DNA of 9,153 bases from Bacteroidaceae bacterium (lineage in GTDB: Bacteria; Bacteroidota; Bacteroidia; Bacteroidales; Bacteroidaceae). The position numbers and the translations under genes are program-made. Shown here piece after piece: positions 4,746-8,383 of the stretch (position 1 is its first letter; the number at the start of each line of letters is the position of its first letter). The stretch is taken from positions 1 through 9,153 of the forward strand of contig JAFZUB010000047.1 of NCBI GenBank assembly GCA_017618515.1. The letters are read 5' to 3'. Under the pieces are notes generated by a model that was not told the origin of the DNA, made no database searches, and saw only the letters and a program-made list of their open reading frames with translations.

Positions 4746-4776
4746 TCGACATTAGTCAAATTGTGAAATCAGAGAT

Positions 4777-4872
4777 GTTTTTCTATGTTTTTTCTTTTCA
4801 AGAGCTTTTAATCCGTTAGGATGTGGCGTGGCTACTATTCTTTCTTCTCTATGAAATGTTTTTTATGTTTTT
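4777..4872 (+). repeat. Internally deleted spacer element (copy A')
   Basis: The flanks are T-rich direct repeats: 4777-4793 (core CTATGTTTTT) and 4858-4872 (core TTATGTTTTT). The left interior, 4794-4835, is a perfect 42-base copy of 4950-4991 in element A, including the ATCC-GTTA-GGAT hairpin. After 4835 the similarity stops, and only a degraded right end (ATGAAAT before the right flank) is recognisable. About 60 bases of interior seem to be missing relative to A. Strand is given as the orientation shared by all copies. Confidence 0.6.
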
Positions 4873-4900
4873 CCCAATGAGATGATGGCAACCTTCGTCA

Positions 4901-4930
4901 GATGTAAGATGTATGATGTCTGATGTAAGA
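4901..4930. repeat. Degenerate 7-base tandem repeat (GATGTNN)
   Basis: Four 7-base units, GATGTAA, GATGTAT, GATGTCT and GATGTAA, run from 4901 to 4928 between elements A' and A. The same word type recurs at 6311-6357 upstream of gcvT. No coding or promoter role is apparent. Confidence 0.65.
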
Positions 4931-4933
4931 ATT

Positions 4934-5092
4934 GTTTTTCTTGTTTTTGCTTTTCAAGAGCTTTTAATCCGTTAGGATGTGGCGTGGCTACGGCAGGAGG
5001 ATGACGGAAGTTTACTTACGGACAGACTCGTGGCGATAGCCTCGACTTCAGCACAAAGTGCTAAGCTCTTGAAAAGGGTTTTTTAGGTTTTT
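4934..5092 (+). repeat. Spacer element copy A with inverted-repeat stem and three hairpins
   Basis: The outer direct repeats are GTTTTTCTTGTTTTT (4934-4948) and GTTTTTTAGGTTTTT (5078-5092). Inside them is a perfect 14-base inverted repeat, CTTTTCAAGAGCTT (4950-4963) against AAGCTCTTGAAAAG (5063-5076). Within the arms lie three small hairpins: ATCC-GTTA-GGAT (4967-4978), AAGT-TT-ACTT (5008-5017) and AGCAC-AAA-GTGCT (5050-5062), the last abutting the right arm. The layout matches copies B and C although the arm and hairpin sequences differ. It sits between gcvT and gcvH. No open frame is shared with the other copies. It could be a small non-autonomous mobile element or a structured RNA; the sequence alone does not decide. 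Confidence 0.6.
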
Positions 5093-5135
5093 GTTATCGT
5101 TTTCGTTATCGTGGCTCCCCTCCTTTTGGGAGGGG
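5093..5135. repeat. GTTATCG doublet and C/G-rich hairpin after gcvT
   Basis: GTTATCGTTTTCGTTATCGT (5093-5112) is identical to 6710-6729 next to lplA. Directly beyond it, CCCCTCC-TTTTG-GGAGGGG (5117-5135) forms a seven-pair hairpin about 20 bases past the gcvT stop on the minus strand. No U tract follows on that strand, so it is not a standard intrinsic terminator and read-through toward gcvH is possible. Confidence 0.55.
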
Positions 5136-5156
5136 CTGGGGGTAGGCCTTTTCGTT

Positions 5157-6257: not shown

Positions 6258-6294
6258 TGTGTTATTTTTTTTAAGTTTAAAAGTCTAGTGTCGA

Positions 6295-6396
6295 GAGTCA
6301 AGGGTCAAGAGATGTCAGATGGCTGATGTCAGATGGCTGATGTCAGATGGCTGATGTAAGTAATCGTCTAGAGTCAAGGGTCAAGAGTCAAGAGTC
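6295..6396. repeat. Degenerate 7-base and 14-base tandem repeats upstream of gcvT
   Basis: A 17-base word, GAGTCAAGGGTCAAGAG, occurs at 6295-6311 and again at 6371-6387, and is itself built of 7-base GAGTCAA/GGGTCAA units; the second array runs on to 6396. Between the copies lie three perfect 14-base units, GATGTCAGATGGCT (6311-6324, 6325-6338, 6339-6352), plus a partial fourth, also divisible into 7-base halves. The array starts 38 bases upstream of the gcvT start codon and would lie in its leader or promoter region. Confidence 0.8.
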
Positions 6397-6403
6397 TTTC
6401 TTT

Positions 6404-6483: not shown

Positions 6484-6490
6484 TGTATTT

Positions 6491-6647
6491 GTTTTCTCGG
6501 TTTTTCTTTCGATTAGGTAGTAACCTCGCAGAGGTGGATGAGGTGGATGCAAGCTTCGCCTGTGAACTCGTTCATGAGGAGAAGCATACAGACACTTCAT
6601 CCGTTAGACGTAGTCTCTACCTAAACGAAAGGGTTTTTACGGTTTTT
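6491..6647 (+). repeat. Spacer element copy B with inverted-repeat stem and three hairpins
   Basis: The outer direct repeats are GTTTTCTCGGTTTTT (6491-6505) and GTTTTTACGGTTTTT (6633-6647), 13 of 15 identical. The inner inverted repeat is CTTTCGATTAGGTAG (6506-6520) against CTACCTAAACGAAAG (6617-6631), 14 of 15 paired. Interior hairpins are CCTC-GCA-GAGG (6524-6534), TGAAC-TC-GTTCA (6563-6574) and AGAC-GTA-GTCT (6606-6616), the last abutting the right arm. It is highly similar along its whole length to copy C on the other side of lplA and in the same orientation. One-base length differences between B and C would shift any reading frame, so it is unlikely to encode a protein. On the plus strand the stem is followed by T-rich sequence, so a small terminated RNA is possible. 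Confidence 0.7.
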
Positions 6648-6651
6648 TTGA

Positions 6652-6729
6652 TAATTAATGGTAAAATTATATGGTAATTAATGTTGAATTTCAAATGTAT
6701 TTGGTTTTCGTTATCGTTTTCGTTATCGT
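6652..6729. repeat. AT-rich spacer with TAATTAATG and GTTATCG repeats
   Basis: This is the remainder of the gcvT-lplA spacer. It holds a direct repeat TAATTAATG (6652-6660 and 6675-6683), a small palindrome CAAAT-GT-ATTTG (6692-6703), and GTTATCGTTTTCGTTATCGT (6710-6729), identical to 5093-5112. The last repeat lies about ten bases beyond the lplA stop. No terminator with a U tract for lplA is visible. Confidence 0.5.
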
Positions 6730-6738
6730 TTAAGCAAC

Positions 6739-7437
6739 CTAAGCAATTTTTGCGACCTCCTCTACGCTCAGCGTAAACACCTTCTCGCCGCAGAAGAAGT
6801 CGCGGGCATACGCCTTGAACTGCTCAATCGTGACGCGGTCGCCGATAAAGTCCTTCAGCAGGCAGATGCGCTGTCGCACACTCTCCACGCCCTTGCGGGC
6901 CAGCTTCTCAGTGCCCGGCGTGATAGACGCCACCATGTGCTCCATGTTAGTGTCGTAGAGCATCGTGCCGTGCACAATGATGCGCTCCTGCATCTGATAT
7001 ACAGCCCATCCGCTCACCTTGCGGTCGCCAATCAGTATGTCGTTATGGTCGGAGGTGCATGCCTCCACACCCATCGAGCGCAGCAAGTCCACCACGCGTT
7101 GCAGGTAGTGGCTGAACACCTCGGGCGTCGTCATGTCGTGGTGGCGCGAGCACACGAAGCTGAACATCACATTGTCCTTGTCGGCATACACGCCGCCGCC
7201 TCCGCTCTTGCGCCTCACTATGTCGATGCCGTGCTCACGGCAGTAGGGTAGGTTCACCTCGTTCTCCAGCACCTGGTTGCGCCCTATGATGACGGTGGGA
7301 GCCACCTGCCAGAGGAAGAAGGCCTCCTCCACCTGCGTGAGGTGCTGCGCCACATACTCCTCCATTGCGAGGTAGAACGACAGGCTATGCGTCTCCTGCT
7401 GTGGTAGAGCTATGTAGGTGATATTGCCGTTTTGCAT
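6739..7437 (-). CDS. lplA: Lipoate-protein ligase family protein
   Basis: It probably activates free lipoate with ATP and attaches it to the lipoyl lysine of GcvH (K64) and other lipoyl domains. The 232-residue product has the catalytic-domain motifs of the LplA/LipB/BPL fold: RRKSGGGGVYADKDNVMFSF (75-94), NDILIGDRKVSGWA (132-145) with K140 as the expected active-site lysine, and HGTML (157-161). It is about 100 residues shorter than E. coli LplA and lacks the C-terminal accessory domain, so it may need a separate partner, use a preformed lipoyl adenylate, or act as an amidotransferase between lipoyl proteins; the sequence does not settle which. Its place beside gcvT supports a role in H-protein lipoylation. 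A TACCTTTG box lies four bases before the chosen ATG. Its last codons run into a GCAACCTAAGCAA repeat also seen at 7689-7708. Confidence 0.88.
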   Translation of the reverse strand: MQNGNITYIALPQQETHSLSFYLAMEEYVAQHLTQVEEAFFLWQVAPTVIIGRNQVLENEVNLPYCREHGIDIVRRKSGGGGVYADKDNVMFSFVCSRHHDMTTPEVFSHYLQRVVDLLRSMGVEACTSDHNDILIGDRKVSGWAVYQMQERIIVHGTMLYDTNMEHMVASITPGTEKLARKGVESVRQRICLLKDFIGDRVTIEQFKAYARDFFCGEKVFTLSVEEVAKIA

Positions 7438-7441
7438 ATTA

Positions 7442-7449
7442 CAAAGGTA
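7442..7449 (-). promoter_or_regulatory. Bacteroidetes -7 box of lplA
   Basis: On the minus strand the sequence reads TACCTTTG TAAT ATG. TACCTTTG matches the Bacteroidetes primary-sigma -7 consensus TAnnTTTG exactly. No clear TTTG -33 box is present about 20 bases further upstream. With only four bases before the ATG, transcription would start at or within a few bases of the start codon, giving an almost leaderless mRNA. The alternative is that the true start codon lies further inside the gene, although the N-terminus as called looks normal for the family. Confidence 0.55.
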
Positions 7450-7481
7450 GATAGAGGTAGGAGCAGTTAAGGGGTAGTTAA

Positions 7482-7639
7482 CTTTTCTAGGTTTTTCTTT
7501 CGCTCAGGTAGTAACCTCACAGAGGTGGATGGTGTGGCTGTAGGCTTTGCCTGTGAACTCGTTCATAAGGAGAAGCATACAGACACATTCATCCTTTAGA
7601 CGCAGTCTCTACCTGAAAGAAAGGGTTTTCTCGGTTTTT
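7482..7639 (+). repeat. Spacer element copy C with inverted-repeat stem and three hairpins
   Basis: The outer direct repeats are CTTTTCTAGGTTTTT (7482-7496) and GTTTTCTCGGTTTTT (7625-7639). The inner arms are CTTTCGCTCAGGTAG (7497-7511) and CTACCTGAAAGAAAG (7609-7623), 13 of 15 paired. Interior hairpins are CCTC-ACA-GAGG (7515-7525), TGAAC-TC-GTTCA (7554-7565) and AGAC-GCA-GTCT (7598-7608). Compared with copy B, the hairpin stems are conserved while two of the loops change by one base. One stem pair has changed on both sides (TTAGGTAG/CTACCTAA in B, TCAGGTAG/CTACCTGA here). It lies 32 bases upstream of the lplA -7 box, between the divergent lplA and sigma genes. Confidence 0.7.
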
Positions 7640-7654
7640 GTTTTATATCCGTTA

Positions 7655-7846: not shown

Positions 7847-8197
7847 ATGAACTTACATATCACACATCATAGAGCCAATGAAACGGAGCGCCTGATGGTG
7901 GCTGAGCGGGACAAAATGCTGCAATACGCCTGCTACCGGCTAGGGAGTCTCGACGAAGCGGAAGATGCCGTACAGGATGCGTTTGTAAATGTTCACAAGA
8001 GGTTGGGCGAGGACGATGCAGATATCAGGAATCTGTCGGCATATCTCTATTGCGCACTGGCAAATATCTGCGTCAGTCGTCTGCGTGAAGCCGAACGCAC
8101 ACCCATCGTTCCCCTTGACAGCGTCCCCGAACCGATCGCCTCCGAGGATGATGACTTCGAACAGGAGTTCCACCGCATCAACCACTTGCTTACATAA
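7847..8197 (+). CDS. ECF sigma factor, truncated after region 2 by an in-frame TAA
   Basis: This open frame encodes 116 residues that match the N-terminal half of a Bacteroidetes extracytoplasmic-function sigma factor. The region 2 core is at about residues 22-85: DKMLQYACYRLGSLDEAED AVQDAFVNVHKRL followed by LSAYLYCALANICVSRLRE, the part that binds core RNA polymerase and the -10 element. The frame stops at TAA (8195-8197), right where the linker meets region 4. The codons directly after the stop, in the same frame, encode the missing region 4 (8198-8359), so a single base change, such as CAA to TAA, explains the truncation. Without region 4 the product should not recognise a -35 element normally. 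It is followed by an anti-sigma gene and a TonB-receptor-like gene, the usual setting for nutrient-responsive ECF factors. Either a recent pseudogene, a sequencing error, or a two-piece sigma factor. Confidence 0.8.
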   Translation: MNLHITHHRANETERLMVAERDKMLQYACYRLGSLDEAEDAVQDAFVNVHKRLGEDDADIRNLSAYLYCALANICVSRLREAERTPIVPLDSVPEPIASEDDDFEQEFHRINHLLT

Positions 8198-8359
8198 ATT
8201 CCAGACATGCAGGCAGAGGTCATCCGACTGCGGTTCTACGGGGACAGGAGCTTCCAGGAGATAGCCGACATCCTCGGCATACCGCTCAACACTGCCAAAT
8301 CGCGCTTCACCTACGGCATGGAGAAAATTAAACGAGGGATGCTTGCCCTCTATTCCTAA
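8198..8359 (+). pseudogene. Sigma factor region 4, cut off from region 2 by a stop codon
   Basis: In frame with the preceding gene, this stretch encodes 53 residues starting IPDMQAEVIRLRFYGDRSFQ and continuing EIADILGIPLNTAKSRFTYG, a typical sigma-70 region 4 helix-turn-helix with the usual end of an ECF protein, closing at TAA (8357-8359). The combined product of 7847-8359 would be 170 residues, normal for an ECF sigma. An ATG at 8207, nine bases after the TAA, could in principle restart translation to give a 50-residue region 4 peptide, but no Shine-Dalgarno is seen before it. No frameshift is present; the reading frame is intact on both sides of the stop, which suggests the lesion is recent or not under decay. 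Confidence 0.8.
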
Positions 8360-8383
8360 TAAACCCATAAAAAATAGAAGACT

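Follow-up and report, generated by a model that had tools for sequence, protein, structure and literature searches.

The stretch of DNA that we analysed, hereafter the window, is 9,153 nucleotides long and derives from a Bacteroidaceae bacterium; in it, two closely similar structured elements, B and C, lie in the same orientation on either side of lplA (this and the other gene names in the window are our presumed readings). The resemblance of the two copies, noticed in a sequence-only reading of the window, is real: they are 89% identical over 104 nt and 88% identical over a further 52 nt. Both contain an outer stem and three internal arms, and the loop changes (GCA to ACA, GTA to GCA) and the compensatory T-A to C-G change between B and C that this reading had described are confirmed. 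It had also counted three internal hairpins and a T-rich right flank. The number of arms holds, but the middle one is long, interrupted by internal loops and capped by a tetraloop; the flank is indeed T-rich, but it is part of the element and is found on both sides, as direct repeats. The features are listed below, with bit scores obtained with R2, a broad model that was built without window sequence and includes copies from sister genomes.

6488-6651, + strand: element B with both T motifs (core 6506-6631); 113.0 bits, fold z -7.2
6492-6505, + strand: left T motif of B, TTTTCTCGGTTTTT (alignment and profile of 84 single copies)
6506-6520, + strand: 5' half of the outer stem of B, pairing with 6617-6631 (folding and alignment)
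6523-6535, + strand: hairpin 1 of B, triloop GCA (folding and alignment)
6536-6602, + strand: central arm of B, with internal loops and apical tetraloop CTCG (folding and alignment)
6606-6616, + strand: hairpin 3 of B, triloop GTA (folding and alignment)
6617-6631, + strand: 3' half of the outer stem of B (folding and alignment)
6632-6651, + strand: right T motif of B, GGTTTTTACGGTTTTT..., in the orientation of the left one (alignment and profile)
7479-7643, + strand: element C with both T motifs, core 7497-7623; 107.4 bits, z -6.1
4931-5096, + strand: element A, of a different sequence family with the same architecture, core 4950-5076; 121.0 bits, z -6.4
4775-4876, + strand: truncated A copy retaining the 5' part, 93% identical to the start of A over 57 nt
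4869-4935, + strand: probable truncated copy of a third family, beginning CCCAATGAGATGATGG (judged by eye)

The RNA folding energies of B and C are -57.8 and -56.7 kcal/mol (z -7.2 and -6.1), and none of 200 shuffled sequences folded as well as either. None of 4227 Rfam covariance models matched the window at E<=1, in agreement with the earlier statement that no named family was known for the element. B and one element of genome G235 had no match in plasmid and phage records, and the exact B/C core pattern is absent from the viral and species-representative contigs searched.

Element A, located between genes that we read as gcvH and gcvT, is recovered at 63.5 bits by R1, a model made of B-family copies only. 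The truncated A copy at 4775-4876 is a weak match to R2 (18.8 bits, E 0.004), and the CCCAATGAGATGATGG copy was compared by eye with complete copies starting CCAATGAG at loci L085, L133 and L135. The spacers at 5083-5147, 6290-6400 and 6700-6730 contain short repeat modules (GTTATCGTTTTCG, GTCAGATGGCTGAT and the palindrome CCCCTCCTTTTGGGAGGGG) that also flank elements of sister genomes. At 7847-8360, an ECF-sigma-like gene is split: one frame stops at 8197, and 3' of it a further frame in a different phase has region-4-like sequence, which may reflect a real lesion or an assembly error.

One dispersed superfamily, with several sequence families but a single four-armed fold, includes A, B and C. 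The element measures about 165 bases, with a core of about 125 nt between T-rich motifs in direct orientation, and is ordered T motif, outer stem, small-loop hairpin, long tetraloop arm, small-loop hairpin, T motif. A stem scan (T run, 12-base stem, second T run) gave a single match in 1.3 Mb of 80 gcvT loci and 107 distinct matches, a few of them apparently spurious, in 0.5 Mb around elements, and none in either shuffled sequence. Requiring a second right T block and a core of 105-150 nt left 96 copies, whose cores are mostly near 125 nt within the range admitted and 84 of which have exactly three hairpins. The arm sizes are kept, the central arm measuring 59-70 nt in 46 representatives. Its tips are gCNNGc in 25 of these, TTNA in 7 and GNRA or UNCG in none, and GNA accounts for 45 of 65 triloops. 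Triloops of this type, like gCNNGc tetraloops, have exceptional stability in DNA; CUUG forms a stable tip in RNA as well. A profile of 84 single copies shows one and the same T motif at both ends of the element; on the left it adjoins the stem directly, with no GTAG foot between them, the scan itself having required an inner T run. Mini copies at L177, L225, L228 and L243 consist of a T motif, a short palindrome and a T motif, with no inner arms, and look like deletion derivatives. At L161, L164, L168, L172, L175 and L177, an extra small hairpin (for example GGCTTGAAAAGCC) lies between the T blocks of the left motif.

The fold covaries in three alignments. In the B family, 48 pairs are paired in 90.8% of cells and 16 of them have changed on both sides, with a covariation of 0.228 against at most 0.097 for slid pairings; in the A family, 36 pairs are paired in 95.7% of cells, and 15 of them have changed on both sides (0.209, against a slid maximum of 0.067); and in 44 diverse copies, 52 pairs are paired in 70.1% of cells and all 52 have changed on both sides (0.474, against a slid maximum of 0.212), the tested structures being favoured over the slid ones in that they derive from the aligned sequences themselves, and the shuffle control ignoring the relatedness of the copies. 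The structure of R2 consists of the commonest pairs of single folds, because RNAalifold on the pooled families gave almost no structure. The proposal that the element is kept as a folded unit is thus supported by further copies that exist and covary. In addition, the strand bearing the T motifs folds more stably in 89 of 96 copies with RNA energies (mean -54.8 versus -46.8 kcal/mol); with DNA energies, this holds for 45 of the 46 representatives. No such preference is expected of a double-stranded cruciform, and what selection maintains is apparently a folded single strand. We lean slightly towards single-stranded DNA rather than RNA as the working strand, on account of the loop types and of the missing promoter (see below), the loop types giving only a lean since the copies share ancestry.

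We then consider the distribution of the elements. Relatives of GcvT come from six close MAGs (95-98% identity), mostly labelled rumen. In eight genomes reached through gcvT loci, the B query matches four and the A query three, and many weaker A-query matches cover only about 26 bases at the 3' end. At a cut-off of E<=0.001, R1 has matches in 35 of 301 family genomes, and R2 has matches in 51 of the 301 Bacteroidaceae genomes, some of them marginal (G064, E 9.6e-4). At the order level, R2 matches 5 of 247 genomes, among them G001; G544 has at least eight matches, G510 at least nine, and G499 and G309 one partial match each, copy numbers being lower bounds since scoring covered the best 9 or 11 candidates of each genome. 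Of the 301 family genomes, 33 contain the right T motif, with a maximum of 26 occurrences in G001, and its backward reading occurs at most twice in any of the 301. Among 77 distinct motif sites in the loci, 59 have a matching stem by a crude test. Seven of the 18 stemless sites are in genomes without an R2 match, and the other 11 include at least two real-looking elements that score below the cut-off (L081, L224) and the four mini copies (L177, L225, L228, L243). A complete element (101.7 bits) is carried by the predicted viral contig IMGVR_UViG_3300032038_004024 (L207 1365-1528), 3 bases behind the stop codon of a frame that we take to encode a phage lysis peptidase. Copies within G001 are mostly 84-93% identical, and such identities would give no sign of recent activity there. 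Searches of the open PMC literature brought up nothing that we recognised as these elements; judged from those searches and from Rfam, the superfamily apparently has no name.

None of the 96 copies overlaps a predicted gene. Gene orientation was called by codon-usage scoring, in copies that are not independent. Of 76 cases in which the 3'-side gene could be called, 50 have this gene facing the element; for copies with a call on both sides, its stop is at a median distance of 60 nt (27 cases) or 76 nt (9), and divergent genes flank 4 of 58 copies. Among 104 units, we count 20 inverted pairs, whose members are 56-151 bp apart, and 84 single elements, some of which may belong to pairs whose partner escaped the scan. 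In G005, four inverted pairs are near-identical between their outer T motifs and unlike outside them, and their surroundings are ordinary genes, for instance those encoding L21 and L27. One frame of 122-138 aa spans the four pairs (L141 4374-4742, 7489-7857, 14493-14870 and 17639-18055); it is seen four times because the element pair is repeated, and is probably a spurious protein in annotations. In G129:C13, pairs separate toxin-antitoxin-like modules (DUF3990, ParE, HTH and GNAT), the HTH module having a HigB-like match just below the Pfam cut-off. This region, at about 6.9-20.2 kb, contains four pairs and one single element in L238 and two more pairs in L247. Elements of both G131 and G235 have a similar gene, presumably UDP-GlcNAc-epimerase-like, in their vicinity (L177 242-1399 and 3810-4814; L318 4116-5276), and in G131 there is also one 22 bp from what we take to be a tyrosine-recombinase-like gene.

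We compared the window with locus L001 of the sister species G001, in which the aligned blocks are 90-94% identical. A block of about 250 bp that includes A and the truncated third-family copy separates gcvH from gcvT in the window, whereas in G001 it separates gcvT from lplA and so has gcvT on its other side. Recombination between B and C had been predicted to delete lplA; G001 retains this gene and has a counterpart of neither copy, and the position 3' of lplA is occupied by B in the window and by A, in the same orientation, in G001. These differences represent movement, exchange or differential loss; no clean empty site was found among the compared loci, and because the flanks differ as well, exchange or differential loss may explain them. 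A target duplication was not detected at single copies (common substring 3.54 versus 3.72 by chance); the flanks of the 20 inverted pairs share 4.20 against 3.75 by chance (sd 0.23), about 1.9 sd above.

Candidate partner enzymes were sought by co-occurrence. Y1_Tnp is present in 9 of 35 R1-positive versus 71 of 266 other genomes and in 17 of 51 R2-positive versus 63 of 250 other genomes, and RVT_1 in 8 of 30 element-positive versus 13 of 30 negative genomes (a negative set that included G022 and G029, later R2-positive); neither shows an association. Among 125 neighbour genes, six clusters are common to two genomes and none to three. A Y1 transposase, a reverse transcriptase and a recurrent neighbour each fail as partner by these counts, in a search whose power is limited because most of the genomes are MAGs.

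The sequence-only reading had left the choice between a structured RNA and a non-autonomous mobile element. We prefer the latter, given the dispersed copies and the presence of another family at the same site of the sister species, and estimate at about 0.58 the probability that these are dispersed, non-autonomous, intergenic mobile elements that work as a folded single strand, although we found neither a mobilising enzyme nor a clean empty site or target duplication. An enzyme acting in trans would recognise the folded strand together with the T motifs, and would copy or insert single elements, or inverted pairs of two families, in many cases after stop codons; its recognition would preserve the fold while the letters drift. 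A tentative extension, which we put forward as a possibility, is that they form an undescribed class of mobile element, a folded single-stranded DNA four-way junction with direct T-rich ends, served by an enzyme that would belong neither to the known HUH Y1 transposases nor to the reverse transcriptases, and whose inverted two-family pairs may move as one unit.

It is unlikely, in our estimation, that the elements are instead multi-copy structured sRNAs with a function for the host, their transcription starting on the strand that bears the T motifs and stopping at the U-rich right motif, the inverted pairs then being divergently transcribed. Such RNAs would account for the folding of the plus strand and for the U tract behind the stem, and gCUUGc tips are stable in RNA too. 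Paralogous sRNA families exist in Bacteroides: the FopS sRNAs, in the part of their description available to us, are likewise multi-copy and from the same bacterial family, but they have a single-stranded 5' part followed by a terminator hairpin, have promoters, and lack a four-arm fold (PMC11697453). Against this account, the identical T motif stands on both sides of the element, positions differ between the sister species, and GNRA or UNCG tips occur in 0 of 46 representatives. The upstream sequence likewise gives no support to the dedicated transcript of about 130 nt that had been proposed: no conserved block precedes the left T motif, and TAnnTTTG occurs upstream of it in 5 of 84 copies versus 5.5 in shuffles, so that no promoter would be predicted.

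A cis-acting terminator or insulator, in which the fold and U tract halt transcription and an inverted pair does so in both directions, fits the location behind stop codons, the U tracts, and the one sense-oriented copy that a pair offers per direction. We nevertheless judge it improbable, since the 3'-side gene mostly faces the element (50 of 76), single copies being antisense to that gene, and the long conserved arm would exceed what a terminator needs.

Still less probable is a miniature derivative of a DDE transposon, in which the inverted pair would be the full unit and the outer T motifs its terminal inverted repeats. The outer motifs of the 20 pairs are indeed inverted repeats, the pairs of G005 act as units, and the flanks of the pairs resemble each other about 1.9 sd beyond chance; but 84 of 104 units are single with direct ends (some partners possibly missed), the fold is strand-specific, and no parent transposase was found, DDE families not having been searched by name.

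We give as little credence to REP or BIME sequences moved by a RAYT (HUH Y1) enzyme. REP/BIME/REPIN sequences with their RAYTs are similarly dispersed, intergenic and palindromic, are recognised as single strands and form inverted pairs; the elements described here are about 165 bases long with four arms and direct T motifs, and have neither the GTAG/GGAG foot of REP hairpins nor a linked RAYT, their cores of 105-150 nt exceeding the 20-65 nt of REP sequences. RAYT subclass 2.6 of Bacteroidetes could be a candidate, 'atypical secondary structures' with genomic copies being reported for it in the accessible part of PMC6006769. One element of G235 does precede a Y1-type gene of 269 aa by about 80 bp, but this is the only case in 20 Y1 regions, and among 16 loci of relatives of that protein an element is found only at the same G235 site, a 36-nt weak match in L321 aside; such relatives were found in 6 of 35 positive genomes and in 3 of 29 negative ones. 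Palindromes of other kinds flank several further Y1 genes: in L323, L324, L330 and L333, they stand on either side of relatives of the G235 gene, each of about 270 aa (e.g. GGGACAGTCCCCTTTGTG), and are probably the REP-like repeats of those genes.

Least probable of all are integron-like recombination sites between gene cassettes: attC sites of integrons likewise function as a folded single strand, and the array-like pairs of G129:C13 separate toxin-antitoxin-like modules, but the elements are mostly outside cassette arrays, the pairs of G005 being among ordinary genes and the window copies flanking gcvT and lplA; we therefore claim no cassette system.

Two further repeat types are set apart by description from the mobile elements that we favour here. 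The ERIC repeats of enterobacteria are imperfect palindromes of roughly 130 bases located between genes, while ours comprise several sequence families with one architecture and T motifs, in another phylum. The minisatellite-bearing MITE of Porphyromonas gingivalis is, like them, a repeat-derived mobile element of Bacteroidales, but in the portion of its description available it is built around the minisatellite (PMC4596501).

Matches to these elements, whose copies in the window have no Rfam match, are found in about one in six of the sampled species of the family (51 of 301). They can be mistaken for genes, as the 122-138 aa frame of G005 illustrates. The covariance model eases both their census and an unbiased search for the partner enzyme, and strong selection on the fold, in elements whose sequence is nearly free to vary, suggests that a dedicated protein binds them.
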